Shown here: one piece after another, positions 21,911-40,716 of the stretch
Position numbering within the stretch: the first letter of the stretch is position 1
Layout of the letters: every line of letters begins with the position of its first letter
NCBI GenBank assembly: GCA_020072655.1
Contig: JAIQGH010000017.1
Location: 1 to 48,354, forward strand
Origin: Terriglobia bacterium
GTDB taxonomy: Bacteria > Acidobacteriota > Terriglobia > UBA7540
Length of the DNA: 48,354 nt
Direction: 5' to 3'
Position numbers and translations under genes: made by a program
The notes under the pieces: generated by a model
What the model was told of the DNA's origin: nothing
What the model saw: the letters and a program-made list of their open reading frames with translations, nothing else
Databases searched by the model: none

Positions 21911-21950
21911 AAAGTGGCTGAAAGTAGCCAAAAGTAGTAGCAAGTGTGAT
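21911..21950 (+). promoter_or_regulatory. MraZ boxes: four 10-bp direct repeats
   Basis: Four consecutive decamers read AAAGTGGCTG, AAAGTAGCCA, AAAGTAGTAG and CAAGTGTGAT. MraZ is known to bind arrays of short direct repeats (AAAGTG-like in Mollicutes, TGGGN-like in E. coli) at 10-bp spacing in front of mraZ. Here the array sits just downstream of the -10 box, placed to repress the whole cluster. Confidence 0.85.
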
Positions 21951-21995: not shown

Positions 21996-22436
21996 ATGCT
22001 GCGCGGCAACAACCCAGCTTCGGTGGACGGCAAGGGCAGGCTCAAGATCCCGGCGGCTTTCAAGACCTACCTGGACGAGAACTACGGTCCCGACTACTAC
22101 GTAACTAGCCTCGACGGACAGTTCGTGCGCGTTTATCCCTTTGCCGAGTGGCGAAGTATCGAAGAAAAACTGGCCGCCCTGCCTTCCATGAACAAAGCCA
22201 AAAAGAAGTTCCTCGACCGTACAAACTACTGGGGGCAGATGGCCAAGATGGATGCGCAGGGCCGCATCCTGATTCCCGCGTTGCTGCGCGAGTCGGCGGG
22301 AATGCGCGGCGAGGTCGCAGTGCTCGGCTACCTCAACTACCTCGACGTGTGGAACAACGAGCGCTATCGCGAGCACCTGGAGCGCGAGCCCTTCACCGAT
22401 GAAGATATCGAGGGTCTGAGCAACCTTGGAATCTGA
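21996..22436 (+). CDS. mraZ: Transcriptional regulator MraZ
   Basis: This 146-residue DNA-binding protein has two tandem SpoVT/AbrB-like (MraZ) domains. The first holds NPASVDGKGRLKIPAAFKTYL, the second AKMDAQGRILIPALLRESAG. Both keep the D-x-[KQ]-GR-[IL]-x-[IL]-P core. MraZ forms oligomeric rings that bind direct repeats in its own promoter and repress the dcw cluster; four matching repeats lie at 21911-21950. It is the first gene of the cluster. The stop is followed within two bases by a GATTTTG heptad array and then rsmH. Confidence 0.95.
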   Translation: MLRGNNPASVDGKGRLKIPAAFKTYLDENYGPDYYVTSLDGQFVRVYPFAEWRSIEEKLAALPSMNKAKKKFLDRTNYWGQMAKMDAQGRILIPALLRESAGMRGEVAVLGYLNYLDVWNNERYREHLEREPFTDEDIEGLSNLGI

Positions 22437-22567: not shown

Positions 22568-23462
22568 GACGCACGTTCCCGTCATGCTACGGGAGGCCCT
22601 TGAGTTCCTCAATGTTGCCCCTGACGGCGTCTATATTGATGCGACGCTGGGCGCTGGCGGTCATGCGGCAGCGATTCTCAGCGTCTTACAGCGGGGGCGG
22701 GGAAAGTTGCTGGGTATCGACCGCGACCCGGCGGCGCTCGAATGGGCTCGACAGCGGCTCGCACGTTTCGGAGAGAGCGTGATGCTCCGGGAAGGCAACT
22801 TCGCCGAAATCGACCAGCTGCACGCCGCGAGCGGTCTAGGGCCCGCTGACGGCCTGCTCGCCGACCTCGGCCTGAGCTCGATGCAGCTCGAAGACGCTTC
22901 CCGGGGATTCAGTTTCGAGCGGCCCGGCCCGCTCGATATGCGGATGGATCCCCACACGCGCACGACAGCCTCCGAGATTGTCAATCGCACTCCCGAGCGG
23001 GAGTTAGCCGACCTGATCTTCAAGCTTGGTGAGGAACGTTTCTCGCGCCGCATCGCGCGAGGGATGGTAAAGGCCCGTCCGATTCGATCAACCACCGAAC
23101 TGGCGCAGGTGGTGACGCGAGCTATCCCCTCCCGGACGGGCCTTTACCATGTTCATCCGGCCACGCGCACGTTTCTGGCGCTGCGCATGGTGGTCAACCA
23201 GGAGCTGGAAAGCCTGGAGACCTTCCTCGCCCAGGCGCTCGGCGTCCTCGCTCCGGGCGGCCGGCTGGTGATTCTCAGCTTTCATTCACTCGAAGACCGG
23301 CTGGTGAAGCGCGCCTTTCAGGCGTGGAAGCGTGAGGGCCAGGCCGAAATCCTCACGAAGAAAGTGGTCCGCCCCGGTGAGGCGGAAATCCAAGCGAATC
23401 CGCGGTCGCGCAGCGCCAAGCTGCGAGCCGCAGAAAAGCAGGGGCTAGGTGCTAGGCACTAG
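22506..23462 (+). CDS. rsmH: 16S rRNA (cytosine(1402)-N4)-methyltransferase RsmH
   Basis: The enzyme (formerly MraW) methylates N4 of C1402 in the 16S rRNA P-site using SAM. Conserved blocks are HVPVMLREALEFL, GVYIDATLGAGGHAAAIL (SAM motif), LGIDRDPAALEWARQRL, GLLADLGLSSMQLEDASRGFSF, LDMRMD, TFLALRMVVNQELESLE and LVILSFHSLEDRLVKRAF. It is 318 residues from GTG 22506, preceded by TTGGAG; TTG 22497 is an alternative. The first 20 or so residues before HVPVM are not conserved and are encoded by heptad repeat DNA. The last six codons (GLGARH) and stop are also in a heptad array. The catalytic core appears intact. Confidence 0.93.
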   Translation: MSDDSEFGKPESRVPNPASRQTHVPVMLREALEFLNVAPDGVYIDATLGAGGHAAAILSVLQRGRGKLLGIDRDPAALEWARQRLARFGESVMLREGNFAEIDQLHAASGLGPADGLLADLGLSSMQLEDASRGFSFERPGPLDMRMDPHTRTTASEIVNRTPERELADLIFKLGEERFSRRIARGMVKARPIRSTTELAQVVTRAIPSRTGLYHVHPATRTFLALRMVVNQELESLETFLAQALGVLAPGGRLVILSFHSLEDRLVKRAFQAWKREGQAEILTKKVVRPGEAEIQANPRSRSAKLRAAEKQGLGARH

Positions 23463-23510
23463 GGGCTAGGAAAGGACAGCCCCCAGCACCCAGTTCCCAG
23501 CACCCAGAGC
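23444..23510. repeat. Facing heptad arms between rsmH and ftsL
   Basis: Heptads GCTAGGT, GCTAGGC, ACTAGGG, GCTAGGA run from 23444 to 23471. They are faced by GCCCCCA, GCACCCA, GTTCCCA, GCACCCA at 23479-23506. The arms pair imperfectly, with many G-U pairs, to form a hairpin in the mRNA. The first arm contains the rsmH stop codon and the second ends three bases before the ftsL start. Confidence 0.8.
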
Positions 23511-26106: not shown

Positions 26107-27624
26107 ATGAAGTTAGGCGAACTCCTCCGGGGAGTGCCGGCCCCGATGAAGGGCAACGGGGCGGCCGGTGCGGATCCTGCCCTGGAGATAACCTCGCTGG
26201 CTTACGACTCCCGCCGCGCTGAGCCGGGCACGCTTTTCTTTGCCATCCAGGGTGAAAAGGCCGACGGCCATGCTTTCATTGCCTCGGCGCTGGAGCGGGG
26301 CGCCGTCGCCATCGCCAGCGAACGTCCCGCGCCGGCAGAACTCGCGGCACGATGGGTTCAAGTGGCGGCGATCCGTCGCGCGCTCTCCGCAGCCGCGCGC
26401 GCCTTCTATGGGGAGCCGGATTCGCGGCTTCAGCTTATCGGCATCACCGGAACCAACGGCAAGACCACCACGGCTTTTCTGATCGAAAGCATCCTTCGCG
26501 CCGCGGGGATTCCGGCCGGCCTTTTCGGGACCATCGAATATCGGCTGGGCGAGAAAGTGCTACCCGCTGTCAACACCACACCGGAATCGTTGGATCTGCT
26601 TTCCTATTTTGCGGATTTGGTTCGTTTGGGCGCCAAAGCTGCCGTCCTGGAAGCGTCTTCCCATGCGCTCGCCCAGGAGCGCCTGTGGGGGTTCCCGTTT
26701 TCAGCGGCGGTATTCACGAACCTCACGCGCGATCATCTCGACTTTCACAAAGATTTTGAGCACTACTTCGCGGCCAAGCGCCGGCTCTTTGAGGGATTGG
26801 GCACGCCGCCCCCCCCGCTGGCGGTCATTAACGCCAACGACCCATGGGGCGCGCGGCTCCTCGATATTCCCAGCACACGGCGTATTACTTATGGCTTGAA
26901 TGGCGAGGCCCAAGTCCGGCCCAAGCACTTCACGCAGAATCTCACAGGCCTCCGGGCCAGCGTGCTGACGCCGGAAGGAAAGCTCGATATCCAATCGCCC
27001 TTGGTCGGGCGGGCGAATCTGGCGAACATCTTGGCCGCGGTGGCGACGGGTATCGGACTGGGCCTCCCCCTGGAGAGCATCCAGCAAGGCGTCGCCGATC
27101 TCCACGCCGTCGCGGGACGCTTCGAGCGGATCGACGAGGGGCAGCCGTTTCTCGTCGTCGTCGACTACGCCCACACCGACGACGCCTTGCGCAATGTGCT
27201 CAACACCGCGCGGGAGCTGACCCGTGGCCGGCTCATTGTGGTCTTTGGCTGCGGGGGCGATCGCGACCGGACCAAGCGGCCGTTGATGGGCGAGGCGGCG
27301 GGCACGCTGGCGGACTTCGTGGTGCTGACTTCTGATAACCCGCGCAGCGAGGATCCCGTCGCCATCATGAACGATGCGTTAGTGGGCCTGCAGAAGACAG
27401 GCAAGCCTTACGTGGCGCGGGCCGACCGCCAGGTGGCGATCCGTGAGGCATTGACTGAGGCCCGGCAAGGGGATGTCGTGGTCCTGGCGGGCAAGGGCCA
27501 CGAGACCTATCAGGTCCTAAAGGGTCTGACGATTCCCTTCGACGACCGCGAGGTGGCGCGCCAGGTCTTGCGGCAACTGGGGTACAGTTCTGAAACCGCG
27601 AGGAATGACCACGGGAAGCCGTAG
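26107..27624 (+). CDS. murE: UDP-N-acetylmuramoyl-tripeptide synthetase MurE, meso-diaminopimelate-adding type
   Basis: The 505-residue cytoplasmic ligase adds the third amino acid to UDP-MurNAc-L-Ala-D-Glu. Domain 1 has SLAYDSRRAEPGTLFFAIQG. The ATP-binding loop GITGTNGKTTTAFL centres on Lys119. NTTPESLDLL and EASSHAL are substrate-binding motifs, and TNLTRDHLDFHKDFEHYFAAKRRLF holds the carbamylated lysine region. DNPR at residues 410-413 is the motif that selects meso-diaminopimelate over lysine, so the peptidoglycan should be of the DAP type. The C-terminus (VVLAGKGHETYQVL) is typical. It is followed by murF after 71 bases. Confidence 0.96.
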   Translation: MKLGELLRGVPAPMKGNGAAGADPALEITSLAYDSRRAEPGTLFFAIQGEKADGHAFIASALERGAVAIASERPAPAELAARWVQVAAIRRALSAAARAFYGEPDSRLQLIGITGTNGKTTTAFLIESILRAAGIPAGLFGTIEYRLGEKVLPAVNTTPESLDLLSYFADLVRLGAKAAVLEASSHALAQERLWGFPFSAAVFTNLTRDHLDFHKDFEHYFAAKRRLFEGLGTPPPPLAVINANDPWGARLLDIPSTRRITYGLNGEAQVRPKHFTQNLTGLRASVLTPEGKLDIQSPLVGRANLANILAAVATGIGLGLPLESIQQGVADLHAVAGRFERIDEGQPFLVVVDYAHTDDALRNVLNTARELTRGRLIVVFGCGGDRDRTKRPLMGEAAGTLADFVVLTSDNPRSEDPVAIMNDALVGLQKTGKPYVARADRQVAIREALTEARQGDVVVLAGKGHETYQVLKGLTIPFDDREVARQVLRQLGYSSETARNDHGKP

Positions 27625-27695
27625 GAATGCTGGGTCTCGCGAGAGTTGAGCGGTTCGGAGCGCCGTGTCGAGTGCTCCGCTGGTCGGGATGAGAC

Positions 27696-29120
27696 ATGCA
27701 ATTAGCGTTGGGCGAAGTGGCGACTGTTCTAGGCTCCTCGTGCGGGTTTGCCGAACGGTTGGCGCGAGGATATGCGATTGATTCGCGCACGCTCGCCCCG
27801 GGCGAGCTTTTCTTCGCCATCCGCGGTCCCCACTTCGACGGCCATCAATTCGTCGAAGATGTCCTCGGGCGGGGTGCCGTCGGAGCCGTCGTCGAGCAAG
27901 CCTTTTACGAGCAGAGCCCTGAGACGCTCCGGCCTGCGCTCATCGCCGTTGACGACACCCCGGGAGCGCTCCAGGGACTTGCCCGCGCGGTCCGCCGAAG
28001 ATGGGACAGGCGGCTCGTCGCCATCACCGGCAGTACGGGAAAATCGACCACGAAGGAAATGACCGCGGCCATTCTGGCGGAGCGCTACTCGGTCCTGAAG
28101 TCAGAGGGGAATCTCAACAATCATTATGGCCTGCCGCTGACATTGCTTGGGCTTGAACCCGGCCATGATGTGGCCGTTGTCGAGCTTGCCATGTCCGCGC
28201 CGGGGGAAATCGCTCGGCTCACTCGCATTGCCGAGCCACAAGTGGGAGCGGTCACCAATGTTGCCCCGGTTCACCTGCAGTTCTTCGAATCTGTGGACGG
28301 CATCGCTCGCGCCAAGCGCGAATTGCTGGAGAATATGCCCGCGGGCTCGACCGCCGTCCTGAACTTTGATGACCCGCGCGCGCGCACTTTCGCTGAGGGT
28401 TTCAAGGGCCGGGTGGTGACCTTCGGGTTTGACCCACACGCCGATTGGAGTGTCGCTGAGGTTGGCGGAGACGCAGTGGAAGGAAGCCGCTTTCGGGTCC
28501 GCGGCGGGGTCCAGGATGCGGAGTTTCGGTTGGGCCTGCCTGGTCGCCACAATATCCAGAATGCCCTCGCCGCCATTGCCATCGCCAGCCTGTTCGACGT
28601 CTCCCCGGCCGAGGCAGGGAAGGCCCTTGCGCACTTCCGTCCACTCCCGCAGCGCAGTGAAATTCTTACACTGCCGGAGGGAATTGTGCTCATCAACGAC
28701 TGCTACAATTCGAACCCTCTGGCGATGGAGACGATGCTCGAGACGCTCGCGCCGTGGCCGGGGGCGCGGCGGCGGATCGTGGTCGCCGGCGAAATGCTGG
28801 AGTTGGGACCGACGTCGCCTGACTTGCACCGTCAAGTAGGCCGGAAATGCGTCGAGTGCCACGTCGACCGCCTTTTCGCCGTGCAGGGCGACGCGCGGCT
28901 CTTCCTCGAAGGGGCGCGCGAGGCCGGCTTCCCTGAGCAACACTGCCGGTTTTTCTCCACCGCGGAGGAGGCCGGGGAATTCTGCCGGAAGGCGCTTGAG
29001 CCTGGTGATGTGGTGCTGATAAAGGGTTCGCGGGCCGTGCATTTGGAGAAGGTAACGCAATTGCTGAAATCCGTGGGCGCCGGCGTCCCCGCTGCTCGCG
29101 ACGCCGAGTCCAGAAGCTGA
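27696..29120 (+). CDS. murF: UDP-N-acetylmuramoyl-tripeptide:D-Ala-D-Ala ligase MurF
   Basis: The 474-residue enzyme attaches D-alanyl-D-alanine to the UDP-MurNAc tripeptide, the last cytoplasmic step of the precursor stem peptide. The N-terminal domain has [28 protein letters not shown]. The P-loop is [21 protein letters not shown], then [18 protein letters not shown] and [16 protein letters not shown]. The central and C-terminal domains have [41 protein letters not shown] and [14 protein letters not shown]. All blocks are in order. The gap to mraY is only 10 bases. Confidence 0.96.
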
Positions 29121-29130
29121 GCGACTCACA

Positions 29131-30261
29131 ATGTTCTATCTCCTCTGGCAGCTCTTTCACGACCAGGTTCGGCTCCTCAACCTTTTCCGCTACATCACCT
29201 TCCGCACGGCGTACGCGACCATGACGGCACTCTTCCTGGCGCTGGTCCTGGGTCCCTGGCTCATCCGCCGATTGAAGGAATTCCAGATCGGTCAATACAT
29301 CCGCGAGGACGGGCCGCAGTCCCATCAATCCAAGGCAGGGACGCCGACCATGGGCGGCGTGCTCATTGTTCTTTGCGTCGTCGTGCCCACGCTGCTCTGG
29401 GCGGACCTGCGGAACATCTTCGTCTGGATGGTGCTCGCGGTAATGCTGGCCTTTGCCGGCATCGGCTTCTGGGATGATTACCAGAAGGTGCGAAGACGTC
29501 AGAATCTCGGACTGACCGCCCGCAGCAAGATCCTGCTCCAAATCCTCGTCAGCTTCATTTTCGGAGTGGCCCTGATCTTCCTCTCGGCGCGGGGGCTCTA
29601 CTCCACGAACCTGACTTTCCCGTTTTTCAAGCGCTTCCGGCCGGACTTGCTAATTCCTTCTCTCCTGACCAATGTGTGGACCTACCCGTTCGCCTTTCTG
29701 CCTTTTCTGCTGTTTGTAATTCTCGTGCTGGTGGGGTCGTCGAATGCCGTCAACCTCACCGACGGATTGGACGGCCTGGCGATCGGCTGCGTCCTCATCT
29801 CGGCCTCGGCGTTGACGGTGCTGACCTACGTCGCCGGGCACGCCGTGCTGGCCGACTACCTCGACCTGGAGCATCTGCCGCGCGTCGCCGAGTTGACCGT
29901 CTTTTGCGGGGCCATGGTCGGCGCCAGCCTGGGATTCCTTTGGTATAACTCCCACCCGGCGGACATCTTCATGGGAGATGTCGGGTCGCTCGCGCTGGGG
30001 GGCGCCATCGCCACAGTGGCCGTCATCATCAAGCAGGAAATGCTTTTGCCGTTTATCGGCGGCATTTTCGTCGTGGAAGCGCTTTCGGTCATTCTCCAGG
30101 TGGGGTCTTACAAGTTGCGAAGAAAGCGCATTTTCAAGATGGCTCCTCTCCATCACCATTTCGAGCTGGCGGGATGGAGGGAATCGAAGATCATCGCGCG
30201 CTTTTGGATCGCCGCCCTGGTCTTCGCGCTCTTTGCGCTGACGACGCTGAAGTTGAGGTGA
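29131..30261 (+). CDS. mraY: Phospho-N-acetylmuramoyl-pentapeptide transferase MraY
   Basis: This integral membrane enzyme of 376 residues transfers phospho-MurNAc-pentapeptide to undecaprenyl phosphate to give lipid I. About ten hydrophobic segments can be seen. Conserved loops are [21 protein letters not shown], then [13 protein letters not shown] (metal and phosphate binding), [27 protein letters not shown] and the histidine cluster [13 protein letters not shown] near residue 335. The length is close to the usual 360. The coding end is followed at once by a long heptad-repeat hairpin and an internal promoter, so murD onward may be partly independent. Confidence 0.96.
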
Positions 30262-30264
30262 AAT

Positions 30265-30426
30265 GTCCTTTGTCCTTAGTCCCTTGTCCTTGGTCCCTTG
30301 TCATCTGCGAGAGGTGGGACTCGACGGTCCGGCACCGGGAGCGGGAACAATGAGTAGCTCGGAGGCCATTACGACAGGGCCAATGACGAAGGACAAAGGA
30401 CAAGGGACCAAGGACAACGGACCAAG
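30265..30426. repeat. Facing heptad arms forming a long hairpin between mraY and murD
   Basis: The first arm (30265-30306) has heptads GTCCTTT, GTCCTTA, GTCCCTT, GTCCTTG, GTCCCTT, GTCATCT. The second (30385-30426) has GACGAAG, GACAAAG, GACAAGG, GACCAAG, GACAACG, GACCAAG. Read as reverse complements, the arms match at about 35 of 40 positions, with a loop of about 80 bases. No gene lies in the loop. Confidence 0.9.
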
Positions 30427-30434
30427 GGCGTCCT

Positions 30435-30463
30435 TTGACAAATGGAATTTCTGCGCATAAAAT
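30435..30463 (+). promoter_or_regulatory. Internal sigma70-type promoter for the rhh-murD segment
   Basis: A perfect TTGACA (30435-30440) and TAAAAT (30458-30463) are spaced by 17 bases. The next ATG is at 30479, only 15 bases after the -10 box, so the leader would be about eight bases. It lies directly after the heptad hairpin. Confidence 0.75.
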
Positions 30464-30478
30464 ACGCACTAATGGCCC

Positions 30479-30661
30479 ATGGCTAGGCCCAAGTCATTCC
30501 GCAATCCCACGCGCGTCAGCCTGACGCTGAATCGCGAGACGCTGGTCGTGGCGCGCCGGCGCGCTCGGCTCGTGCGGCGGTCGCTCTCGGAAATGGTTTC
30601 GGAAATTCTCGACGCCTATTTCCGCCGCAATGGACAGCCGCGCGCGAGGAGGCGGCCATGA
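30479..30661 (+). CDS. Small basic ribbon-helix-helix-like protein inside the dcw cluster
   Basis: This 60-residue, strongly basic protein (MARPKSFRNPTRVSLTLNRETLVVARRRARLVRRSLSEMVSEILDAYFRR) has the pattern of a ribbon-helix-helix DNA-binding domain. A short strand (RVSLTLN) is followed by two helices, the second starting SLSEMVSEIL. Its stop overlaps the murD ATG (ATGA), so it is co-translated with murD. It has its own promoter 15 bases upstream and no Shine-Dalgarno sequence. It is not one of the standard dcw genes. It may be an autoregulator of the murD-onward segment or an orphan antitoxin-like protein; no toxin is adjacent. The fold is inferred from sequence pattern only. Confidence 0.65.
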   Translation: MARPKSFRNPTRVSLTLNRETLVVARRRARLVRRSLSEMVSEILDAYFRRNGQPRARRRP

Positions 30662-32280
30662 CCGATGTGCGAGGCAAGCGCATCCTGGTCGTGGGCCTGG
30701 CCCGCACGGGCCGCGCCACCGCGAAGTGCCTGCAGCGCCACGGGGCGGAAGTGACGGTCACCGATTCCCGCCCGCCGTATGACCTGCGCGCGGATGTCGC
30801 CGAACTGCTGGCCCTCAAGATCGGCATGGAGCTCGGCCTGCACCGCGAAGCCACCTTCCTCGCCCAGGACCTGATTGTCGTCAGCCCGGGCGTTCTGCCG
30901 GAACTGCCGCAGCTTCAGGCGGCAAGGGCCAAGGGAATTCGCGTCGTTTCGGAAGTCGAGGTGGCAAGCTGGTTCCTGGAAGCCGACCTCCTGGGGGTCA
31001 CGGGCTCGAACGGCAAGACAACCACGACGGCGCTGCTGGGGAAGATGCTCGAGGCGTCCGGGTTCCAGACCTTTGTGGGCGGCAACATCGGCTTGCCGCT
31101 GATCGCCGCGGTCGACCAGGTCCCCAAAGATGCGAAGGTCGTGACCGAACTGAGCAGCTTTCAACTCGAAACCATCGAGACTTTCCGCCCGCGCGTGGCC
31201 GTGCTCCTGAACCTCACGCCCAACCATCTGGATCGCCACCCGACGCTCGAAGCTTATGTCGCGGCGAAGGCGCAGATTCTCCGCCATCAGACGCCGGATG
31301 ATTTCGCCGTGCTTAACGCCGATGACCCGGCGGTGATGAACTTGGCCCGAGAGACTGTCGCGCGGAAGATTCTCTTCAGCCGCACGAGGGACCTTCCCGA
31401 CGGCGTGTTCGTCGCTGACGGCCAAATCATCTTTCGCACCGGGAACCTGGAGCGGCCGCTCCTCGCCACGCGCGACATCGCGTTGCGGGGGGATTTCAAC
31501 GTTGAAAACGTCTTGGCGGCCGCCGCGGCCGCGTGCGTGGTGGGCGCGGACTTCGAAGCTATCGCGCGCGCCGTGCGGGAATTCCGGGCCGTCGAGCATC
31601 GGCTGGAGTTCGTGCGGGAAATGCGCGGCGTCGAGTTCTTCAATGACTCCAAGGCCACCAGCGTCGATGCCGCGGCCAAGGCGCTCACGGCATTCACGCG
31701 CGGCGTGCACGTGATTCTTGGCGGCAAGGACAAAGGCGCGCCTTACGCGCCGTTGCGGCCGCAGCTCAAGGAGCGCGCTCGCGCGGTCTATCTGATCGGC
31801 GCTGCGGCGAAGCGCATCGAGCGCGAGCTGATGGGCGCTATCGAGCTGATCCCCTGCGGGGACCTCGAAACGGCGATGCGCCGGGCCTTCGCTCGGGCCA
31901 TGGCGGGGGACACAGTTCTGCTTTCGCCTGCCTGCTCGAGCTTCGACCAGTTCCAGGACTACGAGCACCGCGGGCGCGTGTTCAAGGAAATTGTCGAAAA
32001 GTTGGCGGTGGAAGTGGAAGCCGCCGAAGGTGCGCGCCGGCTCGAGGAGGGCGCTCGCATCCTGGCACCCGCGGTCGCCGCGACGGTTGCCCCGGAGGCC
32101 CCCGCTTTGCCGGAGAGCGTAGCGCCGGGCGGAACTTGTCCCAACGACGTCGGGAGCCCGGCACCTGCCCCGATGAGTCGGGGCGCTACTAGTCCGGCGG
32201 ATGCAGCGCAGGAAGCCGTCCCGGCACGGGAGGCGCCGCCGCCAGTCGAGATTCAGCACCCCGAACGCGTTTACGTTTAG
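30658..32280 (+). CDS. murD: UDP-N-acetylmuramoylalanine-D-glutamate ligase MurD, with unusual C-terminal extension
   Basis: MurD adds D-glutamate to UDP-MurNAc-L-Ala. Conserved blocks are KRILVVGLARTGRATAKCL, VVSPGVLPELP, LLGVTGSNGKTTTTALLGKML, FVGGNIGLPLI, VTELSSFQLETIETFRPRVAVLLNLTPNHLDRHPT, FNVENVLAAAAAA, FFNDSKATSVDAAAKAL and LLSPACSSFDQFQDYEHRGRVFKEIV. The catalytic part ends near residue 460. Another 80 residues of alanine/proline/glutamate-rich tail follow up to a TAG at 32278-32280. The tail includes a GTAG-type palindrome (32167-32189). The frame stays open beyond the TAG for 96 codons of similar composition. The core enzyme should be active; the tail is atypical. Confidence 0.93.
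   Translation: MTDVRGKRILVVGLARTGRATAKCLQRHGAEVTVTDSRPPYDLRADVAELLALKIGMELGLHREATFLAQDLIVVSPGVLPELPQLQAARAKGIRVVSEVEVASWFLEADLLGVTGSNGKTTTTALLGKMLEASGFQTFVGGNIGLPLIAAVDQVPKDAKVVTELSSFQLETIETFRPRVAVLLNLTPNHLDRHPTLEAYVAAKAQILRHQTPDDFAVLNADDPAVMNLARETVARKILFSRTRDLPDGVFVADGQIIFRTGNLERPLLATRDIALRGDFNVENVLAAAAAACVVGADFEAIARAVREFRAVEHRLEFVREMRGVEFFNDSKATSVDAAAKALTAFTRGVHVILGGKDKGAPYAPLRPQLKERARAVYLIGAAAKRIERELMGAIELIPCGDLETAMRRAFARAMAGDTVLLSPACSSFDQFQDYEHRGRVFKEIVEKLAVEVEAAEGARRLEEGARILAPAVAATVAPEAPALPESVAPGGTCPNDVGSPAPAPMSRGATSPADAAQEAVPAREAPPPVEIQHPERVYV
32167..32189 (-). repeat. REP-like palindrome with GTAG head inside the murD 3' extension
   Basis: On the minus strand it reads GTAGC, GCCCCGA, a 4-base loop and TCGGGGC. 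The same plan (GTAG or GTAGC followed by a GC-rich hairpin) is seen at 41719, 41856, 42981 and 43044, and is the hallmark of REP elements mobilised by RAYT transposases. In the murD frame it encodes PMSRGAT. Confidence 0.7.
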
Positions 32281-32568
32281 GAAGTGGGCGCGGAAGAGAC
32301 TGTCTATGCTGACGCGGATGTGCTTGCGGAACCTCCTGCGGACCGCGATGTCGAAGCGGTGACCCTCGAAGCTCTGCCCGCGAGCGAGCCGGTCGAGGAC
32401 GAAGCTCTGCCGTTTGAAGTGCGCGACGGGGCACGCTCACGGTCGTCAGTCTCGGAGGGAGAAGCAGCGGCCACGGGAGACGCCAAGGAAGACTCGCCAG
32501 CAGAGAAACCTTCCCAGGAGCCGGGGCGTGACGCCGGGAAGCGGCAGGCACGGCTCCCCGGGCTGTAA
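32281..32568 (+). other. In-frame open continuation of murD after an amber codon
   Basis: The murD frame continues past the TAG at 32278-32280 for 96 codons to a stop just before ftsW. The composition (EVGAEETVYADADVLAEPPADRD and onward, rich in Glu, Asp, Ala, Pro) matches the murD tail upstream, which ends HPERVYV. It may be a former part of a longer MurD tail cut off by a nonsense mutation, a read-through extension, or a separate small gene starting at GTG 32284, although AGGAA lies too close to that GTG to act as a normal ribosome binding site. No known domain is visible. Confidence 0.5.
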
Positions 32569-32571
32569 AGC

Positions 32572-33663
32572 ATGGCCCGAAGACTCGAATCCGACCGCAT
32601 CTTGTTCGGCACCGCCGTGATCCTGGTGCTGTTCGGCGCGCTGATGGTGTTCAGCGCTTCGGCAGTGCTGGCGTCGGAGCGATTCGGCAACAGCTACCAC
32701 TTCCTGATCCGCCAGGTCATCTGGGCGGCGGTGGGTCTGGGCCTGATGTTTGTCGCGATGCATTTCGAGTACCGCCGCCTGGCTAGTCCGAGCGTGATTT
32801 TTCCGGCGATGGGGCTGCAATTCGTCCTGCTCGTCGTCGTGCTCTTTGCCGACCGCACTCATAACGCGCACCGGTGGCTGCACCTCGGTGCCGCGAGCTT
32901 CCAGCCTTCCGAGCTTTCCAAGATCGTGCTGGTCGTGTTTCTCGCCTATTTCCTTTCTCTCCGCCAAGGTGACGTGAATGATTGGAAGCAAACGCTGTTA
33001 CCGATCGGAATGGTTTCCGGCGCGAGCGTGGCCCTGGTCGTGATGGAGCCGGACCTGGGGACCTCGCTGGCGCTCGCGCTGATTGTCGCTGCCATGCTCT
33101 TTGCGGCGGGGCTGCGGCTTGCCTACTTTGCGTTCGGGGCGCTCGCCGCGCTTCCCGTCCTGTACCTTCTGATCTTTCATGTGGGTTACCGGCAGCGGCG
33201 CGTGATGGCGTTTCTCGATCCTTACTCGGACCCGCTTGGCAAGGGATTCCAGATCATCCAATCGTTTATTGCCGTGGGCACGGGCGGGATTGACGGCGTG
33301 GGCTTGATGGACGGGAAGCAGAAACTCTTCTATCTTCCCGAGCCCCACACCGATTTCATTTTTGCCGTGATCGGCGAGGAACTGGGCTTTATCGGCGCGC
33401 TTTTTGTGCTGGGCCTTTTCGGGGTGGTATTGTGGCGCGGGCTGCGGGCTGCGGCGCATTCGAACGACGAGTTCGGACGACTGTTGGCGATCGGGCTGAC
33501 CGTCATGCTGGTGGGTCAGGCCCTGGTCAACATCAGCGTAGTGCTGGGGCTGATGCCTACCAAAGGGATTCCGCTGCCTCTGATAAGCTATGGCGGCTCG
33601 TCGTTGGTCATGAGTCTTCTTGCCGTAGGGATCTTGCTGAACATCTCTCAGCAATCGAGCTGA
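32572..33663 (+). CDS. ftsW: Septal peptidoglycan glycosyltransferase FtsW
   Basis: The 363-residue SEDS-family protein polymerises lipid II at the septum together with FtsI. About ten membrane segments are visible. SEDS motifs are HRWLHLGAASFQPSELSKI, VVMEPDLGTSLALAL (the catalytic aspartate is in EPDLGTS), YQRHR-like YRQRRVMAFLDP, GGIDGVGLMDGKQKLFYLPEPHTDFIFAVIGEELGFIGAL, and the C-terminal MPTKGIPLPLISYGGSSLVMSLLAVGILLNIS. The length is at the short end for the family, without extra N- or C-terminal tails. Its ATG is just after the open murD continuation, and murG follows after 24 bases. Confidence 0.96.
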   Translation: MARRLESDRILFGTAVILVLFGALMVFSASAVLASERFGNSYHFLIRQVIWAAVGLGLMFVAMHFEYRRLASPSVIFPAMGLQFVLLVVVLFADRTHNAHRWLHLGAASFQPSELSKIVLVVFLAYFLSLRQGDVNDWKQTLLPIGMVSGASVALVVMEPDLGTSLALALIVAAMLFAAGLRLAYFAFGALAALPVLYLLIFHVGYRQRRVMAFLDPYSDPLGKGFQIIQSFIAVGTGGIDGVGLMDGKQKLFYLPEPHTDFIFAVIGEELGFIGALFVLGLFGVVLWRGLRAAAHSNDEFGRLLAIGLTVMLVGQALVNISVVLGLMPTKGIPLPLISYGGSSLVMSLLAVGILLNISQQSS

Positions 33664-33687
33664 GGGAATAAGGCGGAAGTTGAATCG

Positions 33688-34878
33688 ATGGACAGGGAAG
33701 GGCCGGTCGGAGCGGATGTGGAGACGGGGCTGGAGCGCGAGGGGGCGCTGGTCCATCATCGGCCGGCAGCCGAGCCGATTCGAATCCTGATGGTGGCCGG
33801 CGGAACGGGCGGGCACATCTTCCCCGCGCTGGCCGTGGCCGAGGAGTTGCGCGCGCGAGCGGCGGCGCGTGAAACCGTGGAATCCCCCTGCCAGATCGAG
33901 TTTCTGGGCACGGGGCGCGGCTTGGAGGCGCGGTTGATTCCGCGTGCTGGCTTCCCGCTGCGCACGGTCAGCGCAGCGGGATTGAAGGGCATCGGTGGCT
34001 GGCGCCGGCTACGCAACTTCCTGGTGCTGCCGCGCAGCGCCGTGGAGACCGCCTTAATCCTTCGTGAAGATCAGCCGAGCGTGGTCGTGGGCATCGGAGG
34101 TTATGTGGCGGGGCCGGCGATGCTCGAAGCGGCGCTCAAGGATATCCCCACGCTTTTGATCGAGCCCAACGCGGTGCCCGGCTTCACGAATCGGGTGCTG
34201 GCGCCCGTGGTGAGGAAGGCTGCGGTGGGGTTTGAGGAAGCGGCCGTCTACTACGGCTCCAAGGCAGTGGTGACGGGGCACCCTGTCCGTCGAGGGTTCT
34301 TTGCTGTGCCGCGGCGAGAGCACATTCCACCCTTCACGATTCTGGTTTTGGGGGGAAGCCAAGGCTCGCGCGCGATCAATGATTGCGTCGTGAATAGTCT
34401 GGCAGTGCTCGCGAAATGGGCGGGGCCGCCGAGATTCATCCATCAAACTGGTGAACGGGACTATAATGCCGTGCGGCAGGCCTATCAGGAACGAGGGTTT
34501 CCCGCAGAGGTCGTGGCCTTCATCGAGGACGTTCCCGGGGCGCTGGCGCGCGCCGACTTGGTGATCTCTCGCGCCGGGGCCAGTGCGGTGGCCGAGCTCG
34601 CCGCGGCAGGGCGCGCGGCCGTGCTCATCCCCTTTCCGGACGCTGCGGACCAGCATCAGCTTGGCAACGCGCGTGTCCTCGCCCGAGCGGGGGCAGCCCG
34701 TATCATCGAGCAGCATGAGTTGACTCCCGAGAGGCTGATTGCGGAGGTCGGCGACTTGCTCGGCGCCCCTTCGCGGCTCAATGAAATGGCGGCGGCTGCA
34801 AGGCCCCTGGCTCGACCTGACGCCGCCCAGCGCATCGCAGACTTGGTGGAGTGTTTGGCACGAAGAAGCGAATTTTGA
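33688..34878 (+). CDS. murG: Lipid II-forming N-acetylglucosaminyltransferase MurG
   Basis: This GT28 enzyme of 396 residues adds GlcNAc from UDP-GlcNAc to lipid I at the inner face of the membrane. The N-terminal domain begins at about residue 32 with ILMVAGGTGGHIFPALAVAEEL. Further motifs are VGIGGYVAGPAMLEA, LLIEPNAVPGFTNRVL, VVTGHPVRRGFF, ILVLGGSQGSRAIND, FIHQTGERDYNAVRQAY and LVISRAGASAVAELAAAGRAAVLIPFPDAADQHQLGNARVL. The first 30 residues are not conserved. A later start was considered, but no later in-frame ATG precedes the GGTGGH block with a good ribosome binding site. The gene is intact. A GAATTCT heptad array separates it from murC. Confidence 0.95.
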   Translation: MDREGPVGADVETGLEREGALVHHRPAAEPIRILMVAGGTGGHIFPALAVAEELRARAAARETVESPCQIEFLGTGRGLEARLIPRAGFPLRTVSAAGLKGIGGWRRLRNFLVLPRSAVETALILREDQPSVVVGIGGYVAGPAMLEAALKDIPTLLIEPNAVPGFTNRVLAPVVRKAAVGFEEAAVYYGSKAVVTGHPVRRGFFAVPRREHIPPFTILVLGGSQGSRAINDCVVNSLAVLAKWAGPPRFIHQTGERDYNAVRQAYQERGFPAEVVAFIEDVPGALARADLVISRAGASAVAELAAAGRAAVLIPFPDAADQHQLGNARVLARAGAARIIEQHELTPERLIAEVGDLLGAPSRLNEMAAAARPLARPDAAQRIADLVECLARRSEF

Positions 34879-34906
34879 AGGATGAATGGCGACTGCTCAG
34901 TTGTGA

Positions 34907-34945
34907 GTTCTTCTGAATTCTGAATTCTGGATTCTGAATTCTGAC
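34907..34945. repeat. Heptad array between murG and murC
   Basis: Heptads GAATTCT, GAATTCT, GGATTCT, GAATTCT follow a GTTCTTCT start and end in GACG, six bases before the murC ATG. Each unit includes the self-complementary GAATTC, so the array can pair with itself. It occupies most of the 72-base gap. Confidence 0.85.
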
Positions 34946-34950
34946 GTTTT

Positions 34951-36387
34951 ATGCTTGGCAAAATTCGCAAAGTACACTTCGTTGGCATCGGTGGCATTGG
35001 GATGAGTGGCATCGCGGAGGTGCTGCTCAATCTGGGCTACGCGGTCTCCGGTTCCGACCTCAAGCACACGCCGGTCACGGAGCGTTTGGCGGCGCTGGGC
35101 GCGCGGGTCTCGGAAGGACACGCGGCGGAAAACGCGCGCGGGGCGCAAGTGGTCGTGACTTCGACCGCCGTGGCTGCGGACAATCCTGAGGTCCTGGAGG
35201 CTCAGCGCTTACAAATTCCAGTCATCCCGCGCGCCGAGATGCTGGCAGAGCTGATGCGGTTGAAGTTCAACGTGGCGGTGGCGGGTGCGCACGGCAAGAC
35301 CACGGTCACTTCCATGGTCGCGGTGATGCTGGCCGAGGCGGGGCTCGACCCGACGGCGGTGATCGGCGGCCGCCTGGACGCCTTCGGCTCCAGCGCGCGG
35401 CTCGGCAAGGGTGAGCTCATGGTGGTTGAGGCCGACGAGAGCGACCGGTCGTTCCTCTATCTGCTGCCGAGCATTGCCATCGTCACCAACATCGACCGCG
35501 AGCACCTCGACCACTATCGGAATATCAATGAAATCTCTGAAGCCTTCCTGGCTTTCGTCAATAAGGTCCCGTTTTATGGGGCCGTCATCGCTTGCACGGA
35601 CCCGCCGTGGGGAGAGCGTTTTCTCGAAATCCTGCCGCGCATCCGGCGGCGCGTGGTGACCTACGGGCTTGGAGTCGACGCCGACTGCCTGGCTTCCGCC
35701 ATCGAGCTCACCCCTCGCGGTTCCGCGTTCGACGTTGCCTTCCGGGGGAAATCCCTCGGCCGGTTCAAGCTCCATGTCACCGGCCGGCACAATGTGCAAA
35801 ACGCGCTGGCCGCCGCCGCCGTGGGTATCGAACTGGAACTCAGCGCCGACAAAATTCGTATTGGGCTGGAGCATTTCCGCGGCGTCGACCGCCGCTTCCA
35901 GGTGAAGGGAGAGGGGAACGGCATCGCCGTGGTGGACGATTACGGCCATCATCCGGCCGAAATCCGGGCCGTGATGGAAGCCGCGCGGCTGCGGGGCGCG
36001 CGGCGGATTCTGGCGATTTTCCAGCCCCATCGCTACACGCGCACCAAGTTCCTGATGGATGATTTCGCCCAATGCTTCGATGGTTGCGAGCGGGTTTACG
36101 TGCTGGACATTTATCCGGCCAGCGAGCCGCCGATTCCCGGCATCACCTCGGAGCGGCTGGTCGAGCGCATGCGCGAGCTGGGGCTCGACCGCGCCCGCTA
36201 CGCGCCCTCGGAAAAGGCGGTGATCGAAGAAGTGCGAGCGGACATGAGGCCGGGCGATTTGATTATCACCGTGGGCGCGGGGAGCGTGTGGAAAGTCGGT
36301 GAGGCGCAGGGTGAAGCGGTCAAACGGCTGAGCGCGGAGGAGGCGGGCCATTCGCGCGCCCCCGCAGGCGACGCGGAGCGCCCGTAG
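34951..36387 (+). CDS. murC: UDP-N-acetylmuramate-L-alanine ligase MurC
   Basis: The 478-residue enzyme attaches the first amino acid, L-alanine, to UDP-MurNAc. The N-terminal motif is [30 protein letters not shown], followed by [14 protein letters not shown]. The ATP loop is [22 protein letters not shown], then [34 protein letters not shown]. The C-terminal parts include [77 protein letters not shown] and [15 protein letters not shown]. All ligase blocks are present. murB follows after 23 bases. Confidence 0.96.
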
Positions 36388-36410
36388 ATTGTGGAGGCAG
36401 AGGAATAGGG

Positions 36411-37325
36411 ATGTCGCTGTTAGCTCGTGAGCCCGGGATGGCTGAGAAGATGGCGGCCTGGGGCGCCGAGTGGCTCCCTGCGGAGCCGCTCAGCCGGCAT
36501 ACGTCGCTGGGTGTGGGCGGGCCGGCGGACATGGTGCGATTGCGTGACCTGCGCCGCCTTCCCGAACTCATCGCCGACTTGCGCTGCCGCGGCGTCAACT
36601 GGCGCTTGCTGGGCGGGGGGACCAACTTGCTTGTGGCCGATGAAGGACTCAACGTTGTCGTCCTGCATCTCGTCCGCGAGCCGGACGGCCTGAAGTTTGA
36701 CGGCCCGCGCGTCGAGGTTCCTACCGCCGCGAACCTCGGCACCACCGTCATGGAGTGCGCCAAGCGCTATCTGGGCGGCATGGAAGGCTTGATCGGCGTT
36801 CCGGGCACGGTGGGCGGCGCGCTCACTATGAACGCTGGCGCCTATGGCACGCAAATTGGCGACGTCGTCCGCGCCGTTTCGGTTCTTCGCGGCTCCTCCG
36901 GTGGGGTGGAAGTTCTCCGCATGGAAGACGTGCGGTTCCAATATCGTCACTCCAGTTTCGCCGCGGACGATATTCTGCTCTCAGTGTCGCTGGAGTTGCC
37001 CGAGAGGCCTTACGCGGAGATTCTCGAGAAGATCAAGCAGTGCAACCAAAAACGTCGCGCTTCGCAGCCCATCAATGAGAAGAGCGCCGGATGTATTTTC
37101 AAGAATCCTCCCGGCCACTCGACGGGAAAGATGATTGACGAGTTGGGCTTGAAGGGCACGCGCGTGGGCGGGGCAGTGGTCTCCGAGCGGCACGGCAATT
37201 TCATCGTCAACCGCCAGGGAGCCACCGCCTCCGACATTTTCAAGCTGATGGATTTGATTCGCGACCGGGTGCGCGGAGCCTACGGCGTCGAATTGGAAGA
37301 AGAGGTGATTGTCTGGAGGGACTAG
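36411..37325 (+). CDS. murB: UDP-N-acetylenolpyruvoylglucosamine reductase MurB
   Basis: The 304-residue flavoenzyme reduces UDP-GlcNAc-enolpyruvate to UDP-MurNAc with NADPH. The FAD-binding blocks are SLGVGGPADMVRLRDL, LLGGGTNLLVADEGLNVVVLHL and GLIGVPGTVGGALTMNAGAYGTQIGDVV. The substrate domain has FQYRHSSF, and PINEKSAGCIFKNPPG. In that motif the proton donor is Cys228, where E. coli MurB has serine; cysteine occurs in many type II enzymes. IDELGLKGTRVGGAVVSERHGNFIVN is near the end. The shorter length fits type II MurB. The ATG follows GAGGAATAGGG. ddl, which often follows murB, is absent; ftsQ comes next. Confidence 0.95.
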   Translation: MSLLAREPGMAEKMAAWGAEWLPAEPLSRHTSLGVGGPADMVRLRDLRRLPELIADLRCRGVNWRLLGGGTNLLVADEGLNVVVLHLVREPDGLKFDGPRVEVPTAANLGTTVMECAKRYLGGMEGLIGVPGTVGGALTMNAGAYGTQIGDVVRAVSVLRGSSGGVEVLRMEDVRFQYRHSSFAADDILLSVSLELPERPYAEILEKIKQCNQKRRASQPINEKSAGCIFKNPPGHSTGKMIDELGLKGTRVGGAVVSERHGNFIVNRQGATASDIFKLMDLIRDRVRGAYGVELEEEVIVWRD

Positions 37326-37329
37326 TTGA

Positions 37330-37410
37330 CAGTCGAAGGTCGAAAGCCGAAAGCGAGCACGATTGTGCTTCTGCTCTGGACTGTTTACCTTCGACTGCCG
37401 ACTTTTGACT
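37330..37410. repeat. Heptad arms and hairpin between murB and ftsQ
   Basis: The first arm has heptads GTCGAAG, GTCGAAA, GCCGAAA. CAGTCGAAGGT (37330-37340) pairs perfectly with ACCTTCGACTG (37387-37397). A small inner hairpin, AGCAC-gatt-GTGCT (37356-37369), sits in the loop. The second arm ends just before the ftsQ ATG. Confidence 0.8.
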
Positions 37411-37416
37411 AAGGGA

Positions 37417-38358
37417 ATGGCCAGCGGAGAACCCGACGACATTGCGCTGCCGACGGAACTGGATGCCGATGAGGAATCCCCCTATCGGCGTCGCCAGCGG
37501 CCCGTGTCGGCGCGGGGCAGCCGGGCGGGAGGATTTCGGTTCTTCCTGAAGTGGGGCCTGGTCGCGGCCGTGGTTTTGTCGGCGATGGGCTATGCCGGAT
37601 ACTCGGTGGCGGTGTTCATGCTCAGCTCGCCGAGGTTCCTGCTGACGACCTCAAATGATGTGATCGTGACGGGCAACAACTATGTTTCCGTTGAGGAAGT
37701 CACCAGCATGCTGGGCTTGGCGCGATCGGTGAAGCCGGCTTATGGGCTCAACATCTTGCGCCTTCCGCTCGAGGAGAAGAAGAAGCAAGTGGAGTCGATT
37801 GCTTGGGTGCGCTCGGCGACGCTGACGCGGGTATATCCGAACCGCCTGGCCGTGCGCCTGGTGGAACGCACCCCGATCGCTTTCGTGAACATCGACGGAC
37901 GGCTGAAGCTGGTGGACGGCGACGGCGTCGTGCTCGACAAGCCCGAGCGGTCGTCCTTCGATTTCCCTGTGCTCACGGGGCTCGGCTCCGCCAACGGTCA
38001 GGCGGAGCGGGTGGCGCGGCTGGCCCTTTACGAGGCGTTCCTGCGCGAGATCGCCAGTGAAATCTCCGGCTCGGGCTGGATCGTTTCGGAGGTGGACCTG
38101 AGCGACGGCGACGACCTCAAGGCCATGCTGGTCGAAGGGCGCGAAACTTTGCAGGTGCACTTCGGCCACGAAAGCTTCGAGGAGCGTTTCCACAATTTCC
38201 TGACATTGCTTCCCGCGGTCCGCCACAATCATGGCAGAATTGACTCCATCGACCTGCGCTTCCGGAATCAGATCGTCGTGAACCCGCAGCCCGCCGATGA
38301 GACGAGCACGGGAGGCGGGACGAATCATTCCCTCGGCTCGACGGCGCAGGAGAATTAG
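37417..38358 (+). CDS. ftsQ: Cell division protein FtsQ
   Basis: FtsQ connects early and late division proteins. The product is about 313 residues from ATG 37417. There is an acidic and arginine-rich cytoplasmic N-terminus, then one membrane segment at about residues 46-68 (FFLKWGLVAAVVLSAMGYAGYSVAVFML). The POTRA domain follows (NDVIVTGNNYVSVEEVTSMLGL ... GLNILRLPLEEKKKQVESIAWVRSATLTRVYPNRLAVRLVERTPIAFVN). The FtsQ domain after it contains RLKLVDGDGVVLDKP and IDSIDLRFRNQIVVNP. The ATG is preceded by AAGGG. The longer start at 37363 lies in the repeat hairpin and is unlikely. ftsA starts eight bases after the stop. Confidence 0.92.
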   Translation: MASGEPDDIALPTELDADEESPYRRRQRPVSARGSRAGGFRFFLKWGLVAAVVLSAMGYAGYSVAVFMLSSPRFLLTTSNDVIVTGNNYVSVEEVTSMLGLARSVKPAYGLNILRLPLEEKKKQVESIAWVRSATLTRVYPNRLAVRLVERTPIAFVNIDGRLKLVDGDGVVLDKPERSSFDFPVLTGLGSANGQAERVARLALYEAFLREIASEISGSGWIVSEVDLSDGDDLKAMLVEGRETLQVHFGHESFEERFHNFLTLLPAVRHNHGRIDSIDLRFRNQIVVNPQPADETSTGGGTNHSLGSTAQEN

Positions 38359-38365
38359 GACAGCC

Positions 38366-39409
38366 TTGGCGCGCAAGGATCAATACATTTTCGGGCTGGA
38401 TCTCGGCACCACCAAGACCTGCGCGCTCGCCTGCCAGCGCAACAACGAGGGGAAGCTGGAAGTGGCGGGCCTGGGCGTGGCGGAATCGCGCGGCTGGCGC
38501 AAGGGGGTGATCGTCAACCTCAACTCGGCCATGCTGGCCATTAAGAAGGCGGTCGAAGCCGCCGAGGCCGAATCCAAGGCGTCCTTTGAATGGGCCTACC
38601 TGGGGGTGGGAGGAACGCACATCCGAGGCGTGAACTCGCGCGGCGCGCTCAGCCTCGGCGCCCACACCCGCGAGGTCACGTTTGAAGACAAGATCAAGGC
38701 CTTCCAGATCGCCAAGGGTATTACGCTGCCTCCCGACCGCGAACTGATCGACGCCCTGCGGCAGGAGTATTTGCTCGACTCGCAGAATGGCATTCGCGAC
38801 CCGCTGGGGATGACGGGGAAGACCCTGGAGGTGAATGTTCACCTGGTCACCGCCGCCCGGACGGCCTGGCAGAGCATCGTGACGGCGGCGAATAGTGCCG
38901 GAATCAAGGTCCCCGACAGCGGGACCATCTTCGAGCCGCTGGCCTCGGCCTGGGCCTGCGTGAGCGAAGACGAGCGCGAGCTGGGCGTGGCGCTGCTGGA
39001 TATCGGCGGAGGATCGTCCGAGCTGATCGTTTTCCACGAAGGGGCGGTGCGGTATTCCTCGGTGCTGGCCATCGCCGGCGAGCACTTCACGAACGAGCTC
39101 GTGGAACTCCTGCAGCAAGACCTCGCGCGCTTCGGCATGGACAAGCAACTCGGCGCGGGGCTCGTCCTCACCGGCGGTGGGGCCAAGCTGGGCGGCCTCC
39201 TGCCCTTGACCGAGCAGGCGCTCGGCATGCCGGTGCGGCTGGGACGGCCCTCGGGTCTTGAGAAAATGGGCAGTATTCTTTCCGACCCTGTCTACGCAAC
39301 CGTCGTGGGCTTGGTCACGTATGGATATCGTCTGCGGCTTCTTCAGGAGTCAAACGAGAAAGGTTGGTGGGGCAGACTCTGGGGTGGCCTGCGAGGCAAG
39401 AACAGCTAG
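38366..39409 (+). CDS. ftsA: Cell division protein FtsA, lacking an internal block of about 60 residues
   Basis: FtsA is the actin-like membrane tether of FtsZ. The TTG at 38366 gives LARKDQYIFGLDLGTTKTCALAC (phosphate 1). Then come the 1C subdomain (AYLGVGGTHIRGVNSRGAL), ALLDIGGGSSELIVFHEGAVRYSSVLAIAGEHFTN (phosphate 2), and GAGLVLTGGGAKLGGLLPLTEQAL (adenosine motif). After GEHFTN the family normally has about 60 residues (a DIAxGLxTPxxxAExIKxxxGC stretch to PRxxEL). Here ELVELLQQDLARFG follows at once, so that block is missing in frame near 39085-39105. The length is 347 instead of about 400-420. The C-terminal end GWWGRLWGGLRG is the expected amphipathic membrane helix. An intact FtsA is expected in a cluster like this, so an assembly error is possible. 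Confidence 0.85.
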   Translation: MARKDQYIFGLDLGTTKTCALACQRNNEGKLEVAGLGVAESRGWRKGVIVNLNSAMLAIKKAVEAAEAESKASFEWAYLGVGGTHIRGVNSRGALSLGAHTREVTFEDKIKAFQIAKGITLPPDRELIDALRQEYLLDSQNGIRDPLGMTGKTLEVNVHLVTAARTAWQSIVTAANSAGIKVPDSGTIFEPLASAWACVSEDERELGVALLDIGGGSSELIVFHEGAVRYSSVLAIAGEHFTNELVELLQQDLARFGMDKQLGAGLVLTGGGAKLGGLLPLTEQALGMPVRLGRPSGLEKMGSILSDPVYATVVGLVTYGYRLRLLQESNEKGWWGRLWGGLRGKNS

Positions 39410-39518
39410 GTGCCAGGTTCTGGGTGCTGGGGACTGGGTAGTAGGCCCGAAGGCGATTTGAGACCTGTAAAACCTAGCGCCTAGAACCAAGGACCTAGAA
39501 CCTAGAACCTAGCACCCG
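39406..39518. repeat. Facing heptad arms between ftsA and ftsZ
   Basis: The first arm, which includes the ftsA stop codon, reads CTAGGTG, CCAGGTT, CTGGGTG, CTGGGGA, CTGGGTA (39406-39447). The second reads CCTAGCG, CCTAGAA, CCAAGGA, CCTAGAA, CCTAGAA, CCTAGCA (39473-39518). They are reverse-complement related in heptad phase with transitions. The ribosome binding site GGGGGAG of ftsZ follows. Confidence 0.88.
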
Positions 39519-39537
39519 TTCTTCAGAGGGGGAGAGC

Positions 39538-40716
39538 ATGGCAGCCGATGAAGTCAATGAGAGCTTGCGGGTGGATTTCTCCGAGGAGTTGCGCCACGGC
39601 GCCAAGATCAAGGTGATCGGCGTGGGAGGAGGCGGCGGCAACGCGGTCAACCGCATGATCTCCGCCAAGCTGGAAGGCGTGGAGTTCATGGTGGCCAATA
39701 CCGATGTGCAGGCCCTCCGCGCCTCGCAGGCGCCGGTGAAGATCCAGCTCGGGGCGAAGCTGACCAAAGGATTGGGGGCGGGCGCGAACCCTGACATCGG
39801 CCGCCGCGCCGCGTTGGAGGACACGGAAAAGCTCATCGACGCCATGGAAGGGGCGGACATGGTGTTTGTCACGGCGGGCTTGGGCGGGGGCACCGGCACG
39901 GGAGGCGCGCCCATTGTGGCGAGCCTCGCCCGTGAACTGGGTTCGCTCACGGTCGCCGTTGTGACCAAACCGTTCGCTTTCGAAGGCCGACGGCGGATGC
40001 AGCAGGCGGAGCAAGGATTGGCGGAGCTGAGCGAAGCCGTGGATACCGTGATCTGCATCCCCAACGAGCGCCTGATGCAGTACGTGGACAAGGGCACGAG
40101 CTTCTTCGAGGCCTTCCGCATCGCCGATGATATTCTCCGCCAGGGCGTGCAGGGCATTTCCGACATCATCACCATCACGGGCATCATCAACCGCGACTTC
40201 GCCGACATCAAAACGATTATGGAGGGCATGGGTTACGCGGTGATGGGCACGGCGGAGGGCACCGGCGAGAATCGCGCCGTCGATGCCGTCACTCGTGCCA
40301 TCGCCAGCCCCTTGCTCGAGGACGCCACGATTAACGGCGCGCAGGGCATCCTGCTCAACATTACCGGGTCGAGCAAGCTCACCATGTACGAGGTCCACGA
40401 GGCCTCGACCATCGTTCAGAAAGCGGCGGCAGAAAACGCCAACATCATCTTCGGCGCGGTCCACAACGAGGCGATGAAGGACGCCGTGCGCGTGACCGTG
40501 ATCGCCACGGGCATCAAGGCCGAGAAGATTGGCCTCAAGACGCGGGGCGTGGTTTCGCCCGCCCTCCGCTCGGCCCAGCAGAGCGTCAAGAACGTTCTGC
40601 TCAGGAAGGAGAGGTTGCCGATTGAGGCTCCTGTGCCGCGCGTCACCGCGGAAATTCCCGAGGACGATTTGGACGTCCCGGCCTTCATTCGCCGCCGCAA
40701 GCCGGAAGTGAAGTAG
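39538..40716 (+). CDS. ftsZ: Cell division GTPase FtsZ
   Basis: FtsZ is the tubulin-like protein that forms the division ring. The 392 residues include [18 protein letters not shown] (first G loop), [18 protein letters not shown] (tubulin signature, about residues 113-125), [36 protein letters not shown] (T7 synergy loop), and [21 protein letters not shown] short linker leads to the C-terminal peptide [15 protein letters not shown], which is the binding site for FtsA and other partners. GGGGGAGAGC precedes the ATG. It is the last dcw gene and is followed by a GTAG-headed hairpin that may end transcription. Confidence 0.97.

Follow-up and report, generated by a model that had tools for sequence, protein, structure and literature searches.

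Few gene orders in bacteria are as well conserved as that of the division and cell wall (dcw) cluster, which is present in full in the window, the whole stretch of 48,354 nt that was analysed. It opens with mraZ (21996..22436, + strand), which is followed by rsmH, ftsL, an ftsI-like PBP gene, murE, murF and mraY (ending at 30261). Between mraY and murD lies a small open reading frame (30479..30661, + strand) for a 60-residue protein resembling the ribbon-helix-helix (RHH) proteins. Directly downstream are murD (30658..32280, + strand) and then ftsW, murG, murC, murB, ftsQ, ftsA and ftsZ (32572..40716, + strand), identified gene by gene and probably co-transcribed. The identities of mraY and murD were established by NCBIfam matches above the cut-off. 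The RHH-like gene and murD overlap by 4 nt, the stop codon TGA of the former (30659-30661) running into the ATG of the latter (30658), and the murD ribosome-binding sequence GAGGAGG (30646..30652, + strand) is contained within the small gene. An initial annotation of this DNA had placed a long stem, an internal promoter and the small frame in the mraY-murD gap, with the stop of the frame overlapping the murD start; each of these features was found where it had been placed, and the 60-residue RHH-like gene with its overlap was confirmed.

The same annotation suggested looking for the gene beside murD in other Acidobacteriota. The window belongs to a family of soil Acidobacteria, subdivision 13, in which 22 of 39 genomes have the gene; it is essentially absent from the class and phylum samples outside that family. 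A six-frame search of 61 genomes detected the gene in 21, all of them among the 37 family members in that set (the window's own genome included) and none among the 24 others. When 399 genomes of the class were searched with a profile, there were 22 strong matches, every one within the 39 family genomes. Two weaker matches outside the family, in G057 and G147 (E ~9e-8), were set aside; their flanks hold neither mraY nor murD, and the palindrome described below is absent. In a phylum sample of 396 genomes the window's own genome gave the sole match. Six pattern matches on viral contigs yielded no confirmed RHH relative, and a plasmid search found no relative of the gene.

Placement of the gene is equally constant. 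In all 21 loci examined murD follows directly, and in 20 of them mraY directly precedes (the contig of L030 stops short of mraY). The 22nd locus, L104 of G061, also has murD directly after the gene. Judged by eye, the murD start codon overlaps or touches the RHH stop at all 22 junctions, and a Shine-Dalgarno-like sequence for murD occurs at the end of the RHH gene in 16 of the 22 genomes. The small frame, on whose conservation the earlier proposal depended, is maintained in 22 genomes and is under purifying selection, with a median pN/pS of 0.31 (105 pairs among 15 sequences, drawn from those of the 21 that have 60 codons). By codon, the ratio is 0.06 for codons 1-18 (N-terminal arm and strand), 0.32 for codons 19-51 and 0.83 for codons 52-60.

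RHH repressors consist of one strand followed by two helices, with the dimer sharing a two-stranded sheet; they are recognized by alternating polar and basic residues in the strand and by a conserved turn between the helices. The 21 sequences appear to carry both marks. In the putative strand (about residues 12-17) R12 and T16 are invariant and S14 nearly so, and in the inter-helix turn S35, L36 and S37 are invariant. Other residues common to all 21 sequences are M1, R3-P4-K5-S6, R8, P10, L15 and L17 (flanking T16), A25 and R27, and in the second half S41, L44 and N51. AlphaFold2, run on the monomer, predicted helices at 19-31 and 36-50 with a mean pLDDT of 66.6; residues 9-13 fell below 50, so that the strand is uncertain, as might be expected if the protein folds only as a dimer. 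Foldseek returned ten matches, among them CdbA and, as the best, Arc, CopASO, CopG and ParG, all with E >1 and Z <=4.6; all ten are known as RHH proteins, in part from their titles. In a profile search of the PDB, CopG aligned over profile positions 12-48 (E 0.018). That search also returned homeobox chains (E 0.011-0.044), whose alignment was confined to some 21 residues in the second helix and which were taken as chance matches, and a single-sequence PDB search with the small protein gave nothing of note.

Pfam DUF6364 (PF19891), a family to which no function is assigned, is matched by 20 of the 21 members at E <=0.1 (best 5.6e-7); the window protein itself, at 18 bits, stays under the curated cut-off of 27.3. 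RHH_1 is matched by six of the 21 at E <=0.1 (best 0.0011). NCBIfam has no match for the small protein, and the MraZ domain PF02381 has none in the window protein and none listed for the 21 members. Support for an RHH protein, drawn from sequence profiles and a structure model, is thus good but not conclusive. Like the CopG/Arc-type repressors (RHH_1; CopG 1b01/1ea4, Arc 1myl), the window protein is small, basic and probably strand-helix-helix, and its gene shares with theirs a palindromic operator candidate over its own promoter. It differs from them in that its sequence and fold matches are weak only, in being chromosomal, fixed in a cell-division cluster and provided with one site per genome, and in that the searches of plasmids and viral contigs turned up no relative.

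A few members resemble RHH families of antitoxins weakly in Pfam (CcdA in 4, Antitox_RHH in 1 and FitA-like in 1 of the 21), which raises the question of whether the gene is an orphan antitoxin, left from a toxin-antitoxin pair that was captured in the operon, with its autoregulation inherited. Many antitoxins have indeed been described as RHH autorepressors. In every locus, however, the next gene is murD, with mraY on the other flank in 20 of the 21 examined, and there is no partner toxin gene; a protein of 60 residues has little space in which a tail that binds a toxin could fit, and its final nine codons are under hardly any constraint; and in none of the class, phylum, viral and plasmid searches did a close relative next to a toxin gene turn up outside the family. 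Such an explanation is considered improbable. As an account of origin it is compatible with the reading favoured below, a solo autorepressor.

The promoter upstream of the RHH gene has a -35 hexamer TTGACA (30435..30440, + strand) and a -10 hexamer TAAAAT (30458..30463, + strand) separated by 17 nt. This sequence (30435-30463) agrees with the sigma-70 consensus at 11 of 12 positions and is the single sigma-70-like match in 27000-34000, although shuffled sequence yields 0.8 such matches on average, and the single match is not significant by itself. Its conservation exceeds chance: TTGAC followed by a -10 box was found in all 22 genomes having the RHH gene, with a spacer from TTGACN to TAAAAT that measures 17 in 20 of them and 18 in the other two. 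ATAAAAT is invariant in the 22, in part due to the rows being anchored there. Transcription is predicted to start near 30470, about 8 nt upstream of the RHH start codon. Promoter and RHH gene are a real conserved module of the family.

The initial annotation missed a palindrome, TGCGCAT-AAA-ATACGCA (17 bp, 30452..30468, unstranded), which contains the -10 hexamer and was recognized from a genome scan and a conservation profile. On either side of it a TT (30448-30449) and an AA (30471-30472) are also conserved and widen its symmetry to about 25 bp. When the upstream regions of the 22 genomes were aligned, TTGAC and then TTtnTGCGYATAAAATRCGCAntAA were conserved and little else, with 0 to 0.7 bits at each position before the -35. 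Since the rows had been lined up on the central CGYATAAAATRCGC, part of the core's information content comes from the anchoring itself; conservation of TTGAC and of the outer TT and AA is independent of the anchor, and conservation of the core is seen independently in the whole-genome scan. The consensus, TGCGYAT-AAA-ATRCGCA, encloses the -10 box of a TTGAC-17/18-TAAAAT promoter.

With at most one mismatch allowed over whole genomes, this palindrome occurs in 22 of the 39 family genomes, at exactly one site in each. The 22 are the same genomes that carry the RHH gene, and none of the 17 gene-less genomes has the site; the reversed control pattern, scanned in the same way over the 39, had no matches. 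When the 3-nt spacer was left free and mismatches were disallowed, every match in the 39 genomes was the promoter palindrome itself. When one mismatch was added to the free spacer, extra sites appeared in many genomes, including gene-less ones (five in G021), and the reversed-pattern controls gave up to three in some genomes.

The RHH start codon lies 6-10 nt beyond the palindrome in 16 of the 22 genomes (the distance for L104 was taken from its sequence), and the transcript would therefore be nearly leaderless. In six loci (L033, L036, L037, L038, L040 and L041) the distance is 64-120 nt. The predicted start (~30470) lies beyond the palindrome, which would therefore function in the DNA rather than as a hairpin in RNA. 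In gaps without the RHH gene, whose lengths for this comparison were set by eye, other promoters are mostly weak-scoring, the best being 9/12 in L050.

On an MraY+MurD tree the gene seems to have been present in the ancestor of the family, with at least four separate losses. One covers a subclade of six genomes in genus g3 (support 100), and another G021 (support 98 with G005). G010 and G029 have each lost the gene beside the intact G023 (support 100). Losses are also seen in G002, G015, G016, G024 and G011, whose position in the tree is poorly resolved (support 25-39). Neither gene nor palindrome is present in 17 of the 39 genomes, and the mraY-murD gaps of 14 of these were read (G032, G033 and G062 were left out). 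In the outgroup the gaps that were read are mostly short (0 to ~130 nt) and have no RHH match; in one outgroup locus, L063, murD is missing beside mraY. Traces of the module persist in two lineages: G010 retains a shrunken RHH reading frame with a degenerate promoter-palindrome, and G029 a garbled frame with the promoter gone. Joint loss through one deletion carries little weight as evidence of a functional tie, and both elements decayed in place in G010 only. Distances between RHH proteins track those between MraY+MurD (r 0.46, reached by none of 5000 permutations; 19 of 21 rows were used, as MraY or MurD was partial in the other two), as expected under vertical descent. At two loci where the RHH gene was lost, L054 and L055 (the gaps of G019 and G031), there is another long hairpin (TGTAGCGGCGGTCTGCGACC...), which resembles a dispersed palindromic repeat.

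Gene, promoter and palindrome are conserved, gene and palindrome co-occur strictly, there is a single site per genome, and the gene overlaps murD. On this basis the RHH protein is most likely a solo autorepressor whose single target is the promoter that serves the RHH gene, murD and probably the genes as far as ftsZ. The sigma-70-type promoter (30435-30463) would drive a transcript from the RHH gene and murD, probably through to ftsZ. Two RHH dimers would occupy the two halves of TGCGYAT-AAA-ATRCGCA, using the strand R12-S14-T16 together with the invariant arm RPKS at the N terminus to contact DNA. The bound dimers would cover the -10 box and block RNA polymerase, and this feedback would hold the distal half of the cluster, including the RHH gene, at a set level; the genes from mraZ to mraY would respond to the mraZ promoter instead. 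With one palindrome site per genome, the protein would therefore be a dedicated homeostat and not a global regulator. DNA binding, the direction of regulation and any signal are deduced from sequence, and the protein may activate in place of repressing. Two separate transcripts are a prediction, and there may be read-through from mraY. The initial annotation had raised the possibility of an autoregulator, and the operator candidate over the -10 box, co-occurring with the gene, supports it.

Palindromes over -10 boxes serve many repressors, and the pairing of RHH protein and palindrome is a matter of deduction, so the site could belong to another regulator, with the RHH protein acting elsewhere or being a passenger. 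Against this, palindrome and gene are together in 22 and both missing in 17 of the 39 genomes, and the co-occurrence holds over the at least four separate losses. Another regulator should also have more sites, yet there is no further exact one in the 39 genomes. That the palindrome serves a different protein is accordingly regarded as unlikely.

To our knowledge, MraZ is the sole repressor known as a built-in part of the dcw cluster. MraZ is AbrB-like and not homologous to the RHH protein. Both are encoded in the window's genome, and the RHH protein would work as MraZ does, as an autoregulator inside its own cluster. Replacement of MraZ by the RHH gene was ruled out, since MraZ occurs in 35 of the 39 family genomes. 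Directly after the -10 of the mraZ promoter are three AAAGTRG repeats with 10-bp spacing (AAAGTGG-N3-AAAGTAG-N3-AAAGTAG, 21911..21937, + strand), for which a pattern scan gave two overlapping matches where 0.02 were expected. They resemble the direct repeats AAAGTG[T/G] reported to bind MraZ in Mollicutes (PMC8475190). By a strict MraZ-like box pattern, such boxes were found at 12 of 30 family mraZ loci and may therefore not be general. The mraZ gene heads the cluster and has direct repeats of the AAAGTG type (PMC8475190), whereas the RHH gene lies in mid-cluster and has a palindrome.

The cluster of the window thus appears, from its sequence, to carry two promoters and two non-homologous built-in repressors. 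It is somewhat more probable than otherwise that the family ancestrally has two dedicated dcw repressors, with MraZ acting at the front promoter and an RHH protein of one target at an internal promoter, so that MurD-to-FtsZ levels would be set apart from MraZ-to-MraY levels; the RHH arm would be a pure homeostat that was lost as a promoter-operator-gene unit in several lineages. In the open-access literature searched, no paper connected the dcw cluster with an RHH protein. Autorepression by RHH proteins is itself known; what is new, as far as searched, is that it is fixed within the dcw cluster as a second control point independent of MraZ. An additional built-in repressor, unrelated to MraZ and acting at one operator, would make for a clean natural experiment. 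Comparison of close relatives with and without the module could show why precursor synthesis has to be kept in balance with FtsZ, and the module-less relatives could show the consequences once such control is dropped.

The remaining feature of the gap is a heptad-repeat hairpin (30265..30422, unstranded), characterized by stem search, folding and comparison with relatives. Its arms, 30265-30304 and 30383-30422, are 40 nt long and 88% complementary, with 78 nt between them, and are made of five to six heptads GTCCYTN. The region folds to -94.3 kcal/mol (z -4.9 relative to 200 shuffled sequences, none of which folded as well). An Rfam match to one microRNA family (E 0.25, far below cut-off) was taken as a chance match to the stem. 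The initial annotation treated hairpin, promoter and gene as one regulatory insertion dividing the cluster, and the hairpin might then insulate the upstream transcript. In the window a strong stem does separate mraY from the promoter, and heptad arms occur in six other family gaps. Nonetheless, the stem has no trailing T-run and no terminator is predicted there; seven module-bearing genomes have gaps of 54-60 nt without such a stem; L052 and L053 lack the module yet hold heptad stems in the same gap; and the unit sequences vary between genomes. A single insertion that includes the hairpin is therefore highly unlikely. Promoter and RHH gene, conserved family-wide, are the part of that proposal that stands, and the hairpin, unconserved and with similar arrays in other gaps, is the part that does not.

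The hairpin was ruled out as part of the module, being unconserved even within the genus: L028, from the sole other genome of the same genus, has a different sequence at the site. Among relatives, the stem in the mraY-murD gap is missing in many or made of other heptads. On comparison of sequences it is a separate, lineage-wide type of intergenic repeat. A three-heptad pattern has 18 matches in the whole genome against three for the reversed-pattern control, six of them in the window and 12 on five other contigs, where several sit in hairpins. The gaps of L029, L028, L038, L040, L052 and L053 have heptad arms of quite different units, and such arms occur also where the RHH gene was lost. Across the window, period-7 tandem arrays occupy gaps or the edges of genes (469-535, 2192-2292, 23440-23507, 30264-30428, 34911-34944, 39471-39516 and 44937-45093), with a unit that changes from place to place. 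Two of these arrays form further long stems (39409-39516 and 44939-45093), and in all three long stems (30265/30422, 39409/39516 and 44939/45093) the arms match each other despite the differing units. The nearest described counterpart found is the set of TAACTGA heptamer arrays reported for Beggiatoaceae (PMC4679880).
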